Shown piece by piece: positions 25,893 to 40,791 of a stretch of 54,192 bases of DNA. Source of the stretch: Alkalibacterium sp. (GTDB lineage: Bacteria; Bacillota; Bacilli; Lactobacillales; Carnobacteriaceae_A); the NCBI GenBank assembly GCA_007692455.1, contig RECC01000085.1:1-54192 (forward strand). Reading direction: 5' to 3'. Below the pieces are notes generated by a model. The model did not search any database. It was not told the origin of the DNA and saw only the letters and a program-made list of their open reading frames with translations. Within the stretch, counting starts at the first letter, position 1. Every line of letters starts with the position of its first letter. The translations under genes and the position numbers were made by a program.

Positions 25893-28208
25893 ATGGAAAG
25901 AATTGCAAAAGTTGACCCCTGGAAAGTCATTTCCACAGATGTAAAGGACAAAAAGCGTGTACAGGAAAGCCTGACGTCACTCGGAAACGGCTATATGGGA
26001 CTGCGTGGAAATTTTGAAGAAGGGTTCTCTGGTGATACTCATATCGGAACCTATCTGGCAGGTGTCTGGTACCCGGACAAAACGCGAGTAGGCTGGTGGA
26101 AAAATGGCTATCCGGATTATTTTGGAAAAGTAATCAATGCGACGAACTTTATTCCTGTAACTATTCTGGTCAATGGACATCAGATTGACTTGAATACAGA
26201 CGATGTCAGAGACTACCACTTGGAACTGGACATGAAAGAAGGGTTACTCAACCGTTCATTTATCTGGATGAAAGACGGCCTTGAAGTCAAATTCAGTTTT
26301 TCCCGTTTCGTCAGTGTGGCAACTAAAGAACTGGCTGTCGTCAATGTCGCTGCTGAAGTGCTTAGCGGACAGGCAACAATCGAAATGACACCACACCTTG
26401 ATGGGGACGTTGAAAACGAAGACAGCAACTATGACGAAATGTTCTGGATCGAACGAAACCGCGGTCTTAGACCGTATCCGTTCCTGACAACTAAGACGAT
26501 TGAAAATAACTTCGGTACGGATCGTTTCACAGTGACAACGATGATGACCAGTCAGACGGATAATCTGGAAAAGCGCTCCTCAGCTGATTCTGAATTGAAG
26601 GTATCAGAAACCTTCAGTAAAGATGTCTCAGCTGGCGATAAAGTATCGCTGACTAAACTGATTGCCGTAGTAAATAGCCGTGACATTGCAGAAAGTGACC
26701 AAGTCGAAGCTGCGCAGGCTATTTTAGATACCGCAACTGAAACTGGTTTTACCGGCTTGAAGGAAGCACATATCAATGAGTGGGCTACCCGCTGGAACAA
26801 TGCCGATGTAATTATTGAAGGCGATGAAGCCAGTCAGCAAGGTGTTCGTTTCAACATTTTCCATCTGTTCGCAACCTATTACGGTGAAGATCCACGTTTG
26901 AATGTAGGGCCTAAAGGCTTTACGGGCGAAAAATACGGCGGCGCAACCTACTGGGATACCGAATCCTGTATTCTGCCTATGTATCTGTCGATTACGGAAG
27001 AAGACGTATCCAAGCAGCTTCTTGTTTACCGTCATAACCAGCTGGAACAGGCTTATACAAATGCGCAGAAACAGGGACTTGAAGGGGCGCTGTACCCAAT
27101 GGTCACGTTCACTGGTATTGAATGCCATAACGAATGGGAAATTACCTTTGAAGAAATTCACCGTAACGGTGCCATTGCCCATGCAATCTTCAACTACGAA
27201 ACGTACTTTGGAGACGACTCCTATGCAGTGGAAAAAGGACTGGATGTTCTGGTCGGCATTTCCCGTTTCTGGGCAGACCGTGTGCATTACTCCAAACGCA
27301 ATGAAAAATACATGATTCATGGCGTGACGGGTCCGAATGAATATGAAAACAACGTCAACAACAACTGGTACACCAACACAATGGCGGCATGGACGTTACG
27401 CTACACACTTGAAACGCTGGAGAAAGCTTCGGATGAGAAGAAGCAGTCCTTGGCTATCAGCGCAGAAGAGAGTAACAAGTGGGCTGACATAGTTGAGCAC
27501 ATGTACTATCCGAAAGATGAAGAGTCAGGTGTTTTTGTTCAGCATGATACTTTCCTGGACAAAGACCTGCGTCCGGTAGACTCACTGAAACCGGAAGAAC
27601 GTCCAATTAACCAGAACTGGTCATGGGACAAGATTCTACGTTCACCGTTTATCAAACAGGCGGATGTCCTTCAGGGACTCTACTTCCTGGGACATGAGTA
27701 TTCAATGGAAGAAAAAGAGAAAAACTTTGATTTCTATGAGCCGATGACTGTTCATGAATCTTCTCTATCGCCGCTGGTTCACTCTATTCTTGCATCGGAA
27801 CTGGGCAAGAAAGACAAGGCCTTTGAGATGTACGAGCGTACGGCGCGTCTCGATCTGGACAACTACAACAACGATACAGAAGACGGCCTGCACATTACCT
27901 CGATGAGTGGCGGCTGGCTGTCAATTGTTCACGGTTTTGCCGGCATGCGTACCTTGACCGGTGGCTTGTCATTTGCTCCATACTGTCCAACTCAATGGAC
28001 AGGGTATCAGTTCAAGCTGAAATACCGTGGCCGTCTGATAGCTGTTCATGTGACTGCTGATGAAGTGGAATTCTCCCTTCAGGAAGGCGACGCATTGACT
28101 TTCACACTGTACGGAAAAGAAGTCAAGCTGGAAGATACACTGACTTCTACCTTGCATGAAAAAGAAGGTGTACCGGAAGCTACTCTGACCAACGCATTCG
28201 ATAAATAA
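25893..28208 (+). CDS. mapA: Maltose phosphorylase (GH65)
   Basis: 771 residues, cytoplasmic. Splits maltose with inorganic phosphate to glucose and beta-glucose 1-phosphate with inversion. The GH65 N-terminal beta-sandwich opens with SLGNGYMGLRGNFEE, and the (alpha/alpha)6 barrel contains the catalytic general acid Glu483 in TGPNEYENNV, at the place of Glu487 of the Lactobacillus brevis enzyme. The phosphate-site region HITSMSGGW near the C-terminus is intact. Length is typical. Trehalose and kojibiose phosphorylases are relatives, but the operon with a GH13_20 enzyme, the downstream pgmB and the maltose transporters favours maltose. It ends in a strong terminator, so pgmB is a separate unit or is reached by read-through. 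Confidence 0.94.
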   Translation: MERIAKVDPWKVISTDVKDKKRVQESLTSLGNGYMGLRGNFEEGFSGDTHIGTYLAGVWYPDKTRVGWWKNGYPDYFGKVINATNFIPVTILVNGHQIDLNTDDVRDYHLELDMKEGLLNRSFIWMKDGLEVKFSFSRFVSVATKELAVVNVAAEVLSGQATIEMTPHLDGDVENEDSNYDEMFWIERNRGLRPYPFLTTKTIENNFGTDRFTVTTMMTSQTDNLEKRSSADSELKVSETFSKDVSAGDKVSLTKLIAVVNSRDIAESDQVEAAQAILDTATETGFTGLKEAHINEWATRWNNADVIIEGDEASQQGVRFNIFHLFATYYGEDPRLNVGPKGFTGEKYGGATYWDTESCILPMYLSITEEDVSKQLLVYRHNQLEQAYTNAQKQGLEGALYPMVTFTGIECHNEWEITFEEIHRNGAIAHAIFNYETYFGDDSYAVEKGLDVLVGISRFWADRVHYSKRNEKYMIHGVTGPNEYENNVNNNWYTNTMAAWTLRYTLETLEKASDEKKQSLAISAEESNKWADIVEHMYYPKDEESGVFVQHDTFLDKDLRPVDSLKPEERPINQNWSWDKILRSPFIKQADVLQGLYFLGHEYSMEEKEKNFDFYEPMTVHESSLSPLVHSILASELGKKDKAFEMYERTARLDLDNYNNDTEDGLHITSMSGGWLSIVHGFAGMRTLTGGLSFAPYCPTQWTGYQFKLKYRGRLIAVHVTADEVEFSLQEGDALTFTLYGKEVKLEDTLTSTLHEKEGVPEATLTNAFDK

Positions 28209-28218
28209 ACAACAGATG

Positions 28219-28248
28219 AAAGGAGGGGACACGCTCCCCTCCTTTTTA
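28219..28248 (+). terminator. Terminator after maltose phosphorylase
   Basis: A perfect eleven-base stem AAAGGAGGGGA/TCCCCTCCTTT with a CACGC loop is followed by further T residues. Confidence 0.92.
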
Positions 28249-28308
28249 TTGACAATAAGAGCATAACTCAGTTCTGCCTTCTGTTGGTTTGGAAATGAAA
28301 GAGAGGAA

Positions 28309-28332
28309 ACGACACGCCGTCCGGCGCGTCGT
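28309..28332 (+). other. GC-rich hairpin in the mapA-pgmB spacer
   Basis: ACGACACGCCG and CGGCGCGTCGT pair over eleven bases with one A-C mismatch. There is no T-run after it, so it is not a normal terminator. It stands out by base composition from its AT-rich surroundings. Confidence 0.5.
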
Positions 28333-28431
28333 GACCCTATTAAAGACTCTTGTTTAACGGAATTATTTTTAATGTAAGGCTTCATTAGGAGTGTGGCTAT
28401 TTGTGCGTGGACTCAAATTGAGCAATAGTAC

Positions 28432-28735
28432 GAGTGGAGGGGCAAGAATGAAGCTTGCGGGAACCCGGCTGACAGAATCAGCTGAGTCACCGGTCAATGG
28501 CTTTTAGCCTGAGACTGAAAGGTGATAGTGAATTGAGTGACTGGTCAACACAAGGTTCAACCGTTACTCGCAGTTTCTTGTGTAACGAGTCACTGGCCAA
28601 CTGATTGCTGGCCGATAACTCATAGGCGTCAATCTTCTGGGTGACTGGTTAACTGACTGTTGACCCTCAACCCAAAACAAAATTTGCACTGAGTAACTAT
28701 GGAAACGACAAAACAATAAGTATGGAGGAATAAAG
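28432..28735 (+). repeat. Degenerate 52-bp tandem repeat array upstream of pgmB
   Basis: Units begin at 28432, 28484, 28535, 28587, 28639 and 28691, spacings 52, 51, 52, 52 and 52. Each starts with a version of GAGTGACTGGTCAAC: GAGTCACCGGTCAAT at 28484, GAGTGACTGGTCAAC at 28535, GAGTCACTGGCCAAC at 28587, GGGTGACTGGTTAAC at 28639. These four match pairwise at about 12-13 of 15 positions. The outer two are weaker: GAGTGGAGGGGCAAG matches at 10 of 15 and GAGTAACTATGGAAA at 9. Units four and five stay similar for 27 bases (20 identical). Several units also contain a small inverted repeat, e.g. ACACAAG/CTTGTGT at 28548-28583 and GGTTAAC/GTTGACC in unit five. The last unit runs into the pgmB ribosome site. 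Confidence 0.7.
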
Positions 28736-29395
28736 ATGATTAAAGGATTAGTTTTTGATTTAGATGGTGTGATTACAGATACGGCTGAGTACCATTATCT
28801 GGCCTGGAAAAGTCTGGCTGAAAAAATAGGCATTGAGATTGACCGTGAGTTCAACGAGCAACTGAAAGGCATCAGCCGTATGGAGTCGCTTGATTTGATT
28901 TTGAAGCACGGAAACAAGGAAGCGGACTTTACAGAAGCAGAGAAAGAAGAACTGGCTACCCAGAAAAATGAAGAGTACAAAGAATACATCAAGGAAATTA
29001 CGCCAGCCGACCTGCTTCCCGGCATCGACAAGCTGCTCAAAGAAGCCAAAGAAAAAGGCCTGGGCATGACCCTGGCTTCAGCAAGTAAGAACGGTCCGGC
29101 TATCATGAACAGCCTGGAAATCATGGACTTGTTTGACGGAATCGTTGATCCAGCGACTCTTAAAGCAGGTAAACCTGATCCGGAAATCTTTGTTCGTGGA
29201 GCTGAAATGCTTGGTCTGAGACCCGACGAGTGTGTCGGTTTTGAAGATGCAGAAGCGGGTATTGAAGGCATCAACGGAGCCGGAATGTTCTCTGTTGGAG
29301 TCGGTTCAGAAGATGCGATGCAGAAGGCGGATTATGCAGTGACAAGTACAGAAGAATTAAATCTGGATACTATTTTAGCGAAAGCAAGCCAATAG
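28736..29395 (+). CDS. pgmB: Beta-phosphoglucomutase
   Basis: 219 residues, HAD superfamily. Converts the beta-glucose 1-phosphate released by maltose phosphorylase to glucose 6-phosphate through beta-glucose 1,6-bisphosphate. Motif I FDLDGVITDT carries the phosphorylated Asp and the general acid Asp two residues on. The cap domain contains the family-typical LKGISRMESLD substrate loop. Motif II is SASKNG, motif III KAGKPDPEIF and motif IV GFEDAEAGI. Length is normal. The ribosome site ATGGAGGAA is strong. The alpha-glucosidase gene follows 20 bases later, so the two are co-transcribed. No clear promoter is seen; the 52-bp repeat array occupies the upstream region. Confidence 0.96.
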   Translation: MIKGLVFDLDGVITDTAEYHYLAWKSLAEKIGIEIDREFNEQLKGISRMESLDLILKHGNKEADFTEAEKEELATQKNEEYKEYIKEITPADLLPGIDKLLKEAKEKGLGMTLASASKNGPAIMNSLEIMDLFDGIVDPATLKAGKPDPEIFVRGAEMLGLRPDECVGFEDAEAGIEGINGAGMFSVGVGSEDAMQKADYAVTSTEELNLDTILAKASQ

Positions 29396-35037: not shown

Positions 35038-38000
35038 ATGAAAGAAAAATTTCAACCTTTATTTTCTGCTTTTTTAGTTGCTTTATTAGTTATGCAGTCA
35101 CTGGCTCAGCTTTTCCCCGTTTTTCAGACAGTTAGAGCTGAAACGGAGCGGTCACTGCGTGTGCATTTGGAAACCGACTCTATCGATAATGACTTATCTT
35201 TATGGATGTGGGGAGATGTCATCACCCCTTCTGATTCAGTAGCCGATTGGCCAAATGGTTCACCTTTTGTCGAAGAGAACCAGACAGAATTTGGCTTTTA
35301 TCAGGACATTCAGATTACAGAAGATGCTGAAGAAATTGGATTAATTCCCGTATTTTCTGACGGATCTAAATATATTGAAGACAATGTAGAAATAGAGTTA
35401 TTCTCAGAAGTCGAAGAAGTCTGGATTAGAGAAGACGGCTCTGTTTACTACTATGAGCCAATCGATTTTGATTCACCAACTATTCGAGTTCATTACTATG
35501 ATGAAGAAGCAAATTATTCAGATTACGGCGTATGGTACTGGGGAGCCGTTCCCAATCCATCAGATGGATGGCCTACCGGTGCTACTACTTTTTCATCAGA
35601 ACAGGTAGGACCATACGGTGCTTACGTTGATATTCCTGTTAATGAAGGTGCTGAAGGTTTCTCATTTTTAATTCTTAATGTTGAGACAGCTGAGCAGACA
35701 GGGGACCTTGTTTTCGAAGACCTTGCCAATCACCAGCAGATTTTTCTGAAGGCGGGCGTTGAAGAAGTCTTTACCAACCCGTTTTATAGAGCAGATGCAG
35801 TAGAAGAAGGTCCAGATGAAACAGACGGTGAGGGAGACATTTCAGTTACTGCTTCCGTCAATCGTTCTTTCAATTACAACGAACATGGAATTTTAGATGT
35901 AAACATTGAGAACAATTCTGACCTTTCAATTGACCGCATCAGAGCTGATGTGTCATCCATCGGCGGACCAGAGAGTTTAACAGTTTCACCAGAATTAAAC
36001 CGTGTGACTTTGTCAGCTGATCATACGGTAGCACCCGGTACTTATCCGATTACTGTTTCAGTCTGGGATGAGAACAATGGACGCTATAACGCTCAGACAG
36101 AAGTAACGATTGAAGCAAGAAACAAAGCTGAAGGCGAACGTGACTGGGATGAAGAAATTATCTACTTCATGCTGACAGATCGTTTCGCTGACGGAGATCC
36201 GTCAAACAATGACCCTTACGGCTTGAATTATGAAAATGCTGATAACCCTCGTGGAACCTATCAAGGGGGAGATTTTAAAGGGGTTACTCAAAATCTTGCT
36301 TACCTTGATGATTTAGGTGTTTCAACTATCTGGATTACACCGATTGTTGAAAATGTCGGGTATGATGTATCTTACGCGAACCCTGAAGATGGCAGCTATT
36401 ACGGCTACCACGGCTACTGGGCTAAGGATTTTGAAGAATTAAATCCTCACTTGGGAACTTTGGCAGACTTCCATGAACTGATTGATTCTGCAGCCGATCG
36501 CGGAATTAATATCATGGTTGACGTCGTATTGAACCACACTGGATACGGATTACATCCTAATGATGGTGTAGATAACCCGCCGGCAGGATACCCAACTGAT
36601 GAGGATCGTGCCCGTTTTGATGGTATGATCAGAGAAACTGGTGGCAGTAATGATCTGACAATGGAATTGGCAGGCTTGCCTGACTTTATCACAGAAGATC
36701 ATGCAGTCAGAGAGCAATTGGTTGATTGGCAAGCTGACTGGATTACTAAGTCAACTACACCTAACGGGAATGCCATTGCAAGCTACCGTGTCGATACAGT
36801 TAAACACGTAGACGATCCAACTTGGCAGCATTTCAAAAATGAATTAGTTGAAAAAGACCCGGCATTCAAAATGATTGGTGAATCATGGGGCGCAAACTAT
36901 AGAAATGACCATGGTTACTTGAATACTGGTACTATGGACAGCTTACTTGACTTCTCATTCAAAGACTATGCTTCTAATTTTGTGAGAGGAAACCTGACTT
37001 CTGTAAATAATACATTGATTGAGCGAAACCAGGTTCTGACAAGTGATGCAACCTTAGGACAGTTTCTGGGCAGTCATGATGAGGAAGGATTCCTATACAA
37101 TCATAACGATAATGAAGGTCAGCTGAAACTGGCTGCTTCTCTACAAATGACCGCTAAAGGACAGCCTGTCATCTACTACGGTGAAGAATTAGGTCAATCC
37201 GGTGATGACAACTGGCCAGAATATGACAACCGCTATGATTTCGGTTGGGATATGATTGAAGGCAACTCAATTCTTGACCACTACCAGAGAGTGATTGGCT
37301 TTAGAAATGACTTTAGCGAACTGCTTTCCAGAGGGAACCGTTCAGAGTTTCTGACTTCAGAAGATGATGAATGGATAATGGTTGAACGGGCATTGAATGA
37401 CGATTCCGTCTATATGGCATTTAATGTATCCGAAGAAGAACAGACAATTTCAGTAGAAGTGACCGGCGAAGATGTTATCGTGATGGATCACTACTCTGAT
37501 GCTGAATACTCAGCTGTTTCAGTTGATGACAGTCATGTACTGACGTTCACAGTTCCGGCTATGGCTGATGGAGGAACAGCATTGCTTTCCATCGCAAATG
37601 GCAGCTTCATTTCTGAAGAAGTGGATACACCAGATGAGCCAGTAGAAGAAACTGATATTGAAGAAGGATTCTTTCGTTTACATTTTGCAGCGCTTCCGTC
37701 AGATGATATCGAAAATCTGGGACTTTGGATCTGGGAAGATGTGAAATCTCCATCCGAAAACTGGCCAACAGGAGCATTATCCTTTGAACAGGCCGTTGAA
37801 ACAGATTATGGCTACTATATGGATATCGAATTGGCAGATAATGCTGAGAAGATTGGGTTCTTGTTCAATACGCGATCAGGAGCTAACTTATCGGATGACT
37901 ATATTGTTCGTCTGATTTCACCAGAAATGAATCAGGCTTGGATGGACGCCGATTACGCTATCTATCCTTATGAGCCACTGTTCGAAGAAGATATGATTCG

Positions 38001-40791
38001 CATCAACTACAGAAGAAACAATGAAGACTACGATAACTGGGGTCTGTGGACTTGGGGAGACGTAGCTGAAGAGACAACAAACTGGCCAGATGGCGCTCAC
38101 GACAGTGATGGCATCGGACAGTATGGAACATTCTTTAACCTGGACTTAGCTCCAGATGCAGAAGAAATCGGCTTTTTATTCCTGGATAAAGCAGGAAGCG
38201 ACCAGACCACTGATTACGAGTTCTCAGGTTTATCAGAACACAGTCAGTTGTTTATTCGTGAAGGAGATGATACTGTCTATACCAATCCTTATTATGCCAG
38301 CGAAGCCGGCATGAGCAGAGCAGAATTGATTTCAGAGACTCAAATAGAAGTGTTTTTCCATTCGACAGAAGGGTTGTCTGAAGAAGGCATCCGAGATTTA
38401 ATTGAAGTTACTGATTCAGAAGGAAATAGTGTAGAGTTTACGGTTACTATTGATCACGAACGCAATGTGGTTATCTTAGAAGGTGACTTTGCAGTTGAAA
38501 ACGGTCCGTATACAGTCATATTTGACGAAACTGAAGCTGAAGCGCGTATGGGCTGGCGCTTGAAAGATGCCCTATATGCCTACGATGGCGAACTTGGTTT
38601 AGACTTACATGAAGACGGTACAGCTGACCTGAAACTGTGGTCTCCAAGTGCAGATGCAGTCCGTGTCGTATTATACGACAAAGACAATCAGGCTGACATT
38701 GTCAGAGATGACATTGAAATGGAAGCCAAAGATTCCGGAGTTTGGGAAATCGTATTAAATGAAGACACAACTGGTTTAAGCGATGTTACAGGCTACTTCT
38801 ATCACTTCGAAATCGAACGGGATGGAGAATCTGTTATGGCTCTAGATCCTTACGCGCGTTCAATGGCAGCTTGGAACAGCAGCGATCCGGATAATTACAT
38901 CGGAAAAGCAGCAATCGTCAACCCAAGCCATATCGGACCGGAACTGGATTATGCAGAAATTGAAGGCTATGAAAAACGTGAAGATGCGATTATCTATGAA
39001 ATTCATGTCAGAGACTTCACATCAGATCCTTCGATAGAAGAAGAGCTCGATAGTCAATTTGGAACATTCAGTGCATTTGTTGAAAAACTGGATTACATTG
39101 AAAGTCTGGGTGTGACTCACGTTCAGATGCTTCCAGTCATGAGTTACTTCTTCGCAAATGAATTTGAGAATGACGAAAGAATGATGAACTATGCATCAAC
39201 CAATGTAAACTATAACTGGGGCTATGACCCACATAGTTACTTCTCGTTAACTGGAATGTATTCAGAAAATCCTGAAGATCCAGCTAAACGAATAGAAGAA
39301 TTCAAATTACTAATTGACGAAATCCACAACCGTGGCATGGGTGTCATATTAGATGTGGTCTATAATCACACAGCTAGAGTACACATTTTCGAAGATCTAG
39401 AACCAAATTACTACCACTTCATGGATGCAGACGGCACCTCACGAACAAGTTTCGGTGGCGGACGTCTAGGAACCACTCATGAAATGGCACGCCGCATTCT
39501 AGTCGACTCAATCACCTACTGGGTTGAAGAGTATAAAGTTGACGGATTCCGCTTCGACATGATGGGTGACCATGATGCAGAAAGTATCCAGATTGCTTTC
39601 GACGAAGCCAAAGAACTGAATCCGAACATTTTAATGATTGGTGAAGGCTGGCGTACATTTGTTGGAGACGAAGGTTATGAAGATGTTATGCCTGCAGATC
39701 AGGACTGGATGCAGCATACTGAAGCGGTCGGTTCATTCTCAGATGATTTCAGAAATGAACTAAAATCCGGCTTCGGCAGTGAAGGGGAGCCTCGCTTTAT
39801 TACAGGCGGTGCACGTTCCATTCAGCAGATTTATGACAACTTAACAGCAAATCCGCATAACTTTACAGCTACTAACCCTGGCGATGTTGTTCCTTACATT
39901 GCTGCGCATGATAACTTGACCCTGCACGATGTAATCGCTCAGTCAATCCAAAAAGACCCTGAGTATCATCAGCAGGAAATCCATCAGCGCATTCGTTTAG
40001 GGAACTTGATGGTACTGACTGCTCAAGGTACACCGTTCATTCACGCAGGTCAGGAATTCGGACGTACCAAGCAGTTCCGTGATCCGGACTTTATTGAACC
40101 GGTCGCTAATGATTTAGTACCATATAAATCTACATTCATGACCAATGCGGATGGAACACCATTCAAGTACCCGTACTTTATCCATGATTCATATGATTCA
40201 ACTGATGCAATCAATATGTTTGACTGGAATAAAGCAACGAATACAGATGAGTATCCAATCAATACGACAACACAAAGCTTTACTACAGGAATGATTGAAC
40301 TGCGCAGAAGTACCGATGCTTTCCGCAAGGGAACAATGGAAGAAATTGCGGAAATGGTCTCTCTGGTAGATGTACCGGAAATTGAGTCTAATGACCTGGC
40401 AATCGTATACCGCGCAGAAGATTCAAATGGCGATATTTATTATGTCTTTGTCAATGCAGATGATTCAGAGCGAACACTGACTATGGCTACTGACCTGACA
40501 GATGGCTACGTTCTGGTTGACGGATCAAGTGCCGGAACACGAGCTATCAGCGAACCTGAAGGCGTCGATGTTTCCGAAACAAGTGTCACTCTGGCACCCT
40601 TAACTGCTTCAGTCATTGTCCTGACCGACAGAGATATGAATGACGAACCAGATGAAGAAGATGAAGAAGTGACTCACCCAAGTGACAAAGCTCCTGGACG
40701 ACAAGATGGCCATCCGAGAGATAATGCTCCCGGTAAGCAGGACGGTCACCCGAGAGATAATGCACCTGGAAGAAACAGATCCAACCGATAA
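35038..40791 (+). CDS. Secreted bifunctional alpha-amylase / type I pullulanase (amylopullulanase)
   Basis: 1917 residues. The signal peptide is cleaved near VRA (about residue 35). Order: two CBM41-type starch-binding modules (about 40-145 and 148-255), an Ig-like domain (about 265-360), and a GH13 amylase domain (about 362-860; Asp586, Glu615, Asp681, with VDVVLNHTG and GSHDEEG). Two further CBM41-type modules follow (about 875-980 and 985-1088), then a pullulanase N-domain, a CBM48-type domain (about 1183-1290), and a GH13_14 pullulanase domain (about 1300-1780) with the type I signature YNWGYDP and Asp1507, Glu1536, Asp1625. The tail after about residue 1865 has three copies of HPrDnAPGkqDG and ends basic (GRNRSNR), with no LPXTG or SLH motif. 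The two active sites cut alpha-1,4 and alpha-1,6 bonds of starch and pullulan outside the cell and supply MalEFG. The ribosome site is AAAGGAG. Confidence 0.93.
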   Translation: MKEKFQPLFSAFLVALLVMQSLAQLFPVFQTVRAETERSLRVHLETDSIDNDLSLWMWGDVITPSDSVADWPNGSPFVEENQTEFGFYQDIQITEDAEEIGLIPVFSDGSKYIEDNVEIELFSEVEEVWIREDGSVYYYEPIDFDSPTIRVHYYDEEANYSDYGVWYWGAVPNPSDGWPTGATTFSSEQVGPYGAYVDIPVNEGAEGFSFLILNVETAEQTGDLVFEDLANHQQIFLKAGVEEVFTNPFYRADAVEEGPDETDGEGDISVTASVNRSFNYNEHGILDVNIENNSDLSIDRIRADVSSIGGPESLTVSPELNRVTLSADHTVAPGTYPITVSVWDENNGRYNAQTEVTIEARNKAEGERDWDEEIIYFMLTDRFADGDPSNNDPYGLNYENADNPRGTYQGGDFKGVTQNLAYLDDLGVSTIWITPIVENVGYDVSYANPEDGSYYGYHGYWAKDFEELNPHLGTLADFHELIDSAADRGINIMVDVVLNHTGYGLHPNDGVDNPPAGYPTDEDRARFDGMIRETGGSNDLTMELAGLPDFITEDHAVREQLVDWQADWITKSTTPNGNAIASYRVDTVKHVDDPTWQHFKNELVEKDPAFKMIGESWGANYRNDHGYLNTGTMDSLLDFSFKDYASNFVRGNLTSVNNTLIERNQVLTSDATLGQFLGSHDEEGFLYNHNDNEGQLKLAASLQMTAKGQPVIYYGEELGQSGDDNWPEYDNRYDFGWDMIEGNSILDHYQRVIGFRNDFSELLSRGNRSEFLTSEDDEWIMVERALNDDSVYMAFNVSEEEQTISVEVTGEDVIVMDHYSDAEYSAVSVDDSHVLTFTVPAMADGGTALLSIANGSFISEEVDTPDEPVEETDIEEGFFRLHFAALPSDDIENLGLWIWEDVKSPSENWPTGALSFEQAVETDYGYYMDIELADNAEKIGFLFNTRSGANLSDDYIVRLISPEMNQAWMDADYAIYPYEPLFEEDMIRINYRRNNEDYDNWGLWTWGDVAEETTNWPDGAHDSDGIGQYGTFFNLDLAPDAEEIGFLFLDKAGSDQTTDYEFSGLSEHSQLFIREGDDTVYTNPYYASEAGMSRAELISETQIEVFFHSTEGLSEEGIRDLIEVTDSEGNSVEFTVTIDHERNVVILEGDFAVENGPYTVIFDETEAEARMGWRLKDALYAYDGELGLDLHEDGTADLKLWSPSADAVRVVLYDKDNQADIVRDDIEMEAKDSGVWEIVLNEDTTGLSDVTGYFYHFEIERDGESVMALDPYARSMAAWNSSDPDNYIGKAAIVNPSHIGPELDYAEIEGYEKREDAIIYEIHVRDFTSDPSIEEELDSQFGTFSAFVEKLDYIESLGVTHVQMLPVMSYFFANEFENDERMMNYASTNVNYNWGYDPHSYFSLTGMYSENPEDPAKRIEEFKLLIDEIHNRGMGVILDVVYNHTARVHIFEDLEPNYYHFMDADGTSRTSFGGGRLGTTHEMARRILVDSITYWVEEYKVDGFRFDMMGDHDAESIQIAFDEAKELNPNILMIGEGWRTFVGDEGYEDVMPADQDWMQHTEAVGSFSDDFRNELKSGFGSEGEPRFITGGARSIQQIYDNLTANPHNFTATNPGDVVPYIAAHDNLTLHDVIAQSIQKDPEYHQQEIHQRIRLGNLMVLTAQGTPFIHAGQEFGRTKQFRDPDFIEPVANDLVPYKSTFMTNADGTPFKYPYFIHDSYDSTDAINMFDWNKATNTDEYPINTTTQSFTTGMIELRRSTDAFRKGTMEEIAEMVSLVDVPEIESNDLAIVYRAEDSNGDIYYVFVNADDSERTLTMATDLTDGYVLVDGSSAGTRAISEPEGVDVSETSVTLAPLTASVIVLTDRDMNDEPDEEDEEVTHPSDKAPGRQDGHPRDNAPGKQDGHPRDNAPGRNRSNR

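Follow-up and report, generated by a model that had tools for sequence, protein, structure and literature searches.

What is the degenerate tandem repeat in the gap between mapA and pgmB of this Alkalibacterium genome, and does it serve the gene that it adjoins? The window, by which we mean the whole stretch of DNA analysed here (54,192 nucleotides, contig RECC01000085.1 of assembly GCA_007692455.1), had been given a preliminary description in which six copies of a 15-base motif, spaced by about 52 bases, were proposed to control pgmB. We find that the array belongs, as a decayed copy, to a family of phased palindrome arrays that is dispersed in Carnobacteriaceae genomes, and that it is not a pgmB device. 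The features of the locus are the following.

25893..28208, + strand: mapA/malP-like gene of a family 65 glycoside hydrolase (maltose phosphorylase type), the upstream gene; open reading frame, NF010380 at 1212 bits.
28219..28250, + strand: likely intrinsic terminator of mapA, stem AAAGGAGGGG/CTCCCCTCCTTT and then TTATT; read from the sequence by eye.
28380..28414, no strand assigned: degenerate half-unit, right arm only (ACTC at 28411-28414), in register; read by eye, matrix score -21 as a whole unit.
28432..28466, no strand assigned: weak palindromic unit 1 (35 bp); matrix score -1.6.
28484..28517, no strand assigned: palindromic unit 2 (34 bp); -8.4 with the 35-bp matrix, yet it starts the best four-unit chain.
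28535..28569, no strand assigned: palindromic unit 3 (35 bp); matrix score 27.8.
28587..28621, no strand assigned: palindromic unit 4 (35 bp); matrix score 16.3.
28639..28673, no strand assigned: palindromic unit 5 (35 bp); matrix score 34.7.
28691..28725, + strand: formerly the sixth copy, not a unit and part of the pgmB leader; matrix score -27.1.
28724-28729, + strand: ribosome site of pgmB, GGAGGA; from the sequence.
28736..29395, + strand: pgmB, beta-phosphoglucomutase; open reading frame, TIGR01990 at 274.5 bits (cut-off 189.4).

A terminator scan reported the mapA stem on the - strand only. Between this stem and the array, at 28310-28331, lies a near-perfect GC-rich hairpin (CGACACGCCG/CGGCGCGTCG) without a T-run, and the pgmB leader contains at 28700-28713 the string TGGAAACGACAAAA, a putative cre-like site. 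A simple scan found no sigma-70-like promoter anywhere in 28150-28780, and the earlier argument that control must therefore lie in the array does not follow. Farther along, after the maltodextrin transporter genes, an open reading frame of 1917 aa (35038-40791) has the look, in translation, of a multi-domain amylase or pullulanase.

The 52-bp period at 28432-28735 is real. Autocorrelation is 0.409 at lag 52, compared to 0.252 +/- 0.028 in dinucleotide shuffles, and 0.38 at lag 104; none of 2000 dinucleotide shuffles of 28432-28735 reached 0.409 at any lag from 20 to 159. Tandem Repeats Finder, originally suggested as a check, left the window array unreported at score 30. With up to three mismatches, the 15-mer GAGTGACTGGTCAAC matches seven times in the window, four times inside the array (shuffle mean 1.04; seven matches in none of 100 shuffles). 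The central four copies had been said to agree at 12-13 of 15 positions, which is true of four of the six pairs, the actual range being 10-13. The repeating unit, however, is not this 15-mer; it is an imperfect palindrome of 34-35 bp, laid out as GAGT, arm, centre, arm and ACTC, after which comes a spacer of 17-18 bp. Using a matrix trained on 13 units from four other arrays of the window genome, we obtained a score of 70.5 for the best four-unit chain, which starts at 28484, against a maximum of -37 over 100 windows shuffled in 2-base blocks. The copies at 28432, 28484, 28535, 28587 and 28639 count as units, the first as a weak one in register, and the one at 28691 is rejected.

A motif search of the window genome revealed further intergenic arrays with the same step. 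A two-unit covariance model, built from 13 unit pairs of five arrays including the one in the window, gave at least 49 matches at E <= 1 in this genome (150 of 689 candidates scored), spread over eight contigs (C41, which is that of the window, C46, C31, C86, C53, C5, C80 and C23). The genome thus holds at least eight arrays, plus two places of another stem type (C59 and C60); single motif matches at C54, C8, C36 and elsewhere resembled chance or coding matches and were set aside. Plain blastn of the window stretch against relatives matched mainly at the start of pgmB. With stricter filters, the covariance model found a match at E <= 0.001 in 7 of 60 relatives, the window genome included. Given that the stems of the relatives' arrays differ in their letters while the ends and the step are the same, we searched by geometry instead, with the pattern GAGT-N26/27-ACTC-N17/18-GAGT-N26-ACTC. 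Of the 395 genomes of the order, 21 carry it, most of them Carnobacteriaceae and one with as many as 163-164 matches per strand; a reversed control pattern is present in 2 of the 395. The positives comprise 11 of the 12 genomes of the window's genus (window genome counted) and two others from its family; a second family contributes seven, and a third a single genome, whose one match may be chance. When a 20-base version was run against 84,980 species, the matches listed were repeated in Alkalibacterium, Pisciglobus, Carnobacterium, Atopococcus and Marinilactibacillus, and also included isolated records in other organisms. The hosts of the family are these five genera of Carnobacteriaceae, and the arms differ between species.

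From the species-wide search we took 118 sequence stretches (L116-L233), 80 of which entered the first counts and the other 38 only the later NERD counts described below. At least ten of them come from unrelated organisms, as isolated records: L139, L153, L162, L163, L166 and L174 were excluded from everything after the first counts, and L186 and L194 also from the final NERD count, in which L199 and L204, likewise from unrelated organisms, were kept. Gene contexts follow from our own ORF calls. Our array detector, which needs GAGT/ACTC-like ends and steps of 49-54 bp, found no array in L159, L186 or L194. The first 80 loci, a few chance loci among them, contain 90 arrays of 3-14 units each; of the 572 units in total, 493 have a length of 34, and the steps are 52 (320) and 51 (122). 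The common unit has 34-35 bp with GAGT/ACTC ends, a variable centre of 6-8 bp and a variable spacer of 17-18 bp, which gives a period of 51-52. Several subfamilies occur per genome, and the major ones end in GAGT...ACTC, usually TGAGT...ACTCA, the units having been chosen partly by GAGT/ACTC. An array with CAGT ends and a GC-rich stem in the same genus (L071 of G006, 19-155) escaped the GAGT pattern, which may thus not capture the whole family. In Pisciglobus arrays (e.g. G025:C42:23471-23764), the spacers are alike across different stem subfamilies, a hint of exchange between subfamilies. Queries with the L067 array against plasmids and with the L167 array against phages and plasmids returned no match; the query taken from the window gave a single match, of 33 bases in Sinorhizobium, which we took as chance. 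A decayed tandem duplication, one of the possibilities first raised for this locus, describes the state of the window copy well and leaves uncovered the period kept in other genera.

Since detection relied on the 51-52 step, we opened the spacer to 5-34 bp and fixed the unit at 34 bp; this pattern does not strictly contain the earlier one, which had allowed a 35-bp first unit. Forward matches numbered 86 in Alkalibacterium kapii (G001), 163 in Pisciglobus (G025) and 18 in Carnobacterium (G103), compared to 85, 163 and 18 with a spacer of 17-18 bp, and all spacers were 17 or 18 (for G103 in every match, for G001 and G025 among the matches listed). GAGT-GAGT distances in 60 loci, themselves chosen by this step, peak at 51, 52 and their multiples, with small peaks at 25, 27, 77 and 181; masking the arrays makes the peaks vanish. 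The spacer keeps its length where its sequence drifts. Across 13 overlapping pairs of orthologous loci, differences amount to 57 of 260 positions in the arms, 35 of 78 in the loop and 91 of 182 in the spacer (p 3e-10, assuming independent positions), and the GAGT/ACTC ends, which are a selection criterion, differ at 0 of 104. Arm divergence among loci averages 3.3 of 20 within A. kapii and 3.8 within A. subtropicum (four arrays). Between the two species, orthologous loci show 3, 7, 4 and 6 differences (two A. kapii arrays being compared at one of the loci) and non-orthologous ones 5.3, which is a weak sign of concerted change.

With respect to genes, 128 non-duplicate arrays (827 units) fall into 44 convergent, 49 co-directional and 10 divergent gaps, with 25 at edges, compared to 46, 210 and 117 array-free gaps of at least 150 bp in the same loci. 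Convergent gaps are therefore enriched (p 1e-10) and divergent gaps depleted (p 4e-6). Most arrays are located 3' of genes, and their neighbours are many unrelated genes. Among the neighbouring features are a NiCo riboswitch (L142:4761-4872) about 210 bp and a TPP riboswitch (L184:5881-5978) about 50 bp from an array. As for the mapA-pgmB gap, in addition to the window genome, 4 of 11 relatives' loci carry an array there (A. subtropicum, A. kapii, Marinilactibacillus piezotolerans and G002), whereas the detector found none in the other seven. The arms of the four differ among themselves at 1-6 of 20 positions, and those of the window differ from theirs at 15-16 of 20. At L021, one partial unit is apparently left in the gap, as read by eye.

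These loci bear on three alternative explanations. An operator or leader array specific to pgmB would account for arrays in the gap of five genomes from two genera, the window's included; it is hardly credible to us, given that the same architecture adjoins many unrelated genes and that the gap lacks an array in 7 of the 11 relatives' loci. Sites of 34 bp with inverted arms and a variable centre also call to mind tyrosine recombinases, whose lox or FRT sites have 13-bp arms and an 8-bp centre, and the single partial unit at L021 could be read as the product of such an enzyme. We consider this very unlikely: A. kapii has 85 pattern matches and two PF00589 proteins, both of about 300 aa, PF00589 is found in all 18 genomes examined, whether or not they carry arrays, and the centre varies inside a single array. 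Finally, the arrays could be selfish or neutral interspersed repeats without a partner, BOX- or MITE-like, that are tolerated downstream of genes and keep their period and ends by descent. Convergent enrichment has been read in this way for pneumococcal BOX, RUP and SPRITE (PMC3049150), and both the unit number of 3 to 14 and the variable presence of an array at the mapA-pgmB gap agree with it. Descent alone, however, sits poorly with spacers other than 17/18 bp being nearly absent when half of the spacer letters differ between orthologues, with arms that change less than loop and spacer, and with the adjacency to NERD genes reported below; we regard partnerless repeats as a rather improbable explanation.

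Palindromes downstream of genes could also act as RNA, and a repeated leader element had been one of the original suggestions. In the broader form of this idea, the units are transcribed hairpins serving as 3' UTR stabilisers, terminator helpers or leader elements. Complementarity between the arms exceeds that of shuffles in two of six subfamilies (606 versus 591.6, 0 of 300 shuffles; 370 versus 358.1, 4 of 300 shuffles) and falls below it in the other four; in the largest subfamily, two arm pairs are unpaired in all 109 distinct units. Complementarity of the centre pairs is depleted in three of eight subfamilies, and the alignment from the window genome shows no excess of stem covariation. 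G-T mismatches outnumber A-C mismatches, with 192 versus 43 in the largest subfamily and 409 versus 248 in all, the orientation of a subfamily being arbitrary, and the RNA fold of 28380-28740 has a z of -2.66; both would suit an RNA. So would the strand polarity of the arrays. One subfamily has a single orientation relative to genes in 12 of 13 co-directional arrays, and permutations reached the transcription score in 6 of 2000. However, orientation tracks GC skew as well, with a score reached in 17 of 2000 (17 of 21 arrays of the Carnobacterium subfamily are oriented one way relative to GC skew, with other subfamilies small or mixed), and the two causes are inseparable, because gene strand and GC skew agree in 58 of 61 loci. 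Rfam returned nothing at gathering score for the arrays of seven loci and weak sub-gathering matches only for the window stretch, and a terminator-like hairpin precedes the array at 62 of 140 gene ends that face one (31 of 140 on the wrong strand); both count against an RNA. Recognition of double-stranded DNA is thus more likely than an RNA hairpin, and a transcribed element is, in our estimate, quite improbable; for the leader at pgmB, Rfam and covariation offer no consistent backing, the excess pairing in two of six subfamilies and the strand polarity notwithstanding. Of the suggestion that a phased protein-binding array controls pgmB, the first half agrees best with the family as a whole, since the 17-18-bp spacing is held, the arms are better conserved than loop and spacer, arm covariation is inconsistent and there is a candidate protein. 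The second half, control of pgmB, is unsupported, owing to the same architecture beside unrelated genes and the array being present in the gap of only 4 of 11 relatives.

The candidate protein emerged from the neighbours of the arrays, four of which match the NERD domain, PF08378. A profile of these four members hit 7 of 237 array-adjacent ORFs and 0 of 1077 others in the first array loci (p 6e-6). Further loci were then fetched by array coordinates, which added cases with and without a nearby array, and the final count comprised 198 array loci with 1663 distinct ORFs of at least 120 aa, 293 of them within 600 bp of an array. It contains 13 NERD relatives, 10 of which are array-adjacent (p 4e-6); as the loci were picked for their arrays and several NERD loci are orthologues of one another (A. 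kapii with A. sp. 20; G083, G137 and G090), the p value overstates independence and the independent cases are fewer than ten. For all of the ten closest relatives (E <= 1e-100), from nine genomes of four genera, there is an array 34-124 bp past the 3' end of the gene: two in Pisciglobus and the others in A. thalassium, A. kapii, A. sp. 20, Carnobacterium G103, G090, G137, G083 and Atopococcus tabaci. Judging by the flanking genes seen, these ten genes occupy at least five different neighbourhoods. The three distant relatives (E 2e-77, 2e-61 and 5e-6) have no array nearby. Distant array-free genes such as those at L327:9896-10822 and L335:575-1480 may provide an outgroup for dating the association. 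The window and the examined loci of its genome contain no NERD relative, and two NERD proteins queried against plasmids gave no match.

PF08378 exceeds its cut-off (22.1 bits) in 7 of 7 members scanned, the other three of the ten being assigned by the four-member profile. D71, Q82, D84, E97 and K99 are invariant in all ten proteins, as are C228, C231, C245 and C248 of a C4 zinc ribbon; the E-x-K that follows D and Q-x-D is, as we take it, reminiscent of PD-(D/E)XK nucleases. An AlphaFold2 model from four sequences has a mean pLDDT of 71.7, its best parts being the zinc ribbon and the three helices that follow. The Foldseek rows were led by nickase BspD6I, an R2 retrotransposon protein and the Can2 nuclease; no row reached E <= 0.001, the TM was about 0.26, and a nuclease fold is therefore suggestive only. 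Sequence search of solved structures gave no good match, and matches in PADLOC and NCBIfam were weak, those to defence proteins covering mainly the NERD part. Few NERD proteins have a known role. Some reportedly have other functions, e.g. SmdA of Staphylococcus aureus (PMC9040797).

In Pisciglobus, one NERD copy is flanked on either side by arrays that belong to a single subfamily, and a second, on the same contig, has a different subfamily downstream; the distance between the two proteins is 0.28 before and 0.47 after the approximate point where the zinc ribbon starts. The distances between arms are correlated with those between proteins (0.77 and 0.73), but both follow kinship, and the arms of Pisciglobus and A. 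sp. 20 are similar (7 of 20) despite distant NERD proteins.

Taken together, we propose that the array family and the NERD protein would form a two-part system resembling REP and RAYT with an unrelated enzyme, in which control of pgmB would not be the job of the array; we give this reading a probability of roughly 0.45. The NERD protein, as the putative partner, would bind the arms as a dimer through its C-terminal zinc ribbon and helical end. Half-site centres alternate at about 21 and 31 bp, which by the helical repeat of DNA is two and three turns and sums to 51-52, so that all sites would lie on one face of the DNA. The nuclease-like domain may nick or cut at the arrays, and repair after cutting could spread, lengthen, shorten and homogenise them, which would explain their dispersal, their variable unit number and the arms changing together within a genome. 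NERD binding, cleavage, the spread of arrays and any benefit to the host are inferred. The stricter version, in which each subfamily has its own paralogue of a NERD zinc-ribbon nuclease that shapes the helically phased arrays genome-wide, and protein and repeats would co-evolve as RAYT and REP do, is, in our view, less likely than not. Strand polarity speaks against the two-part proposal, as it is not expected from a plain symmetric site.

It is also conceivable that the arrays are phased sites for another DNA-binding protein with a chromosomal role, such as topology, insulation or nucleoid organisation at gene ends, and that the NERD gene is merely a frequent neighbour. A spacing that stays fixed while the spacer letters are near-random, loci that recur in different species of two genera and the enrichment in convergent gaps would all be accounted for. 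The association with NERD would then be unexpected, and several subfamilies per genome would require several proteins; we judge such a protein unlikely.

In several respects, the arrays resemble REP and BIME elements, which are described as imperfect palindromes of 20-40 bp in convergent and co-directional intergenic gaps, at times in tandem clusters and associated with a DNA-processing enzyme (PMC2817692; PMC3733652). Palindrome size, intergenic position and the convergent and co-directional bias are shared. In contrast, REP carries a GTAG or CGTC tag at one end and the arrays GAGT/ACTC at both, and the arrays run head-to-tail at a fixed 51-52 bp with NERD, rather than a Y1 transposase, as candidate partner. 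The Y1 transposase domain, PF01797, is missing from six of nine array-bearing genomes tested (G000, which is the window's, G001, G025, G076, G103 and G021); it was found in the array-bearing G005, G010 and G013 and in G026, that is in 4 of 18 genomes in all. The ends and this absence from six array-bearing genomes rule out membership in REP/RAYT. BOX elements (boxA-boxB(n)-boxC) are likewise small intergenic repeats of Lactobacillales with a tandem, copy-variable module and convergent enrichment (PMC3049150); in the arrays inspected by eye, however, no terminal modules were noticed, and many stem sequences share one geometry and a strict phasing. With CRISPR the arrays share a repeat length of about 34 bp, a partial dyad symmetry and regular spacing; CRISPR is excluded because array spacers, at 17-18 bp, are often related copies within an array and the repeats are degenerate and vary; many small arrays per genome are a further difference. 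Titles and abstracts of the literature searched, with few subscription journals covered, contain no description of such arrays nor of NERD proteins with repeats. We file the arrays as a palindromic-repeat-plus-enzyme type for which no earlier description was found.

If this reading is true, geometry is conserved as sequence drifts, with the spacing held to about 1 bp across genera and the arms shifting per species at the same loci. A nuclease-related gene directly before the array in four genera offers a testable partner, and the system would constitute a second, independent solution to the role of REP and RAYT and give NERD proteins a use. What palindromic repeats do at gene ends could then be tested directly. 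Even if selfish, the arrays are conspicuous in cultured and sequenced organisms, and are so without a description in the titles and abstracts searched. In the nearly complete Carnobacterium chromosome G103:C2, all ten array sites matching a 16-base pattern lie within 1 Mb (124852-1080254 of 2625711), with a density that rises towards 1.08 Mb and with dnaA at 2.58 Mb.
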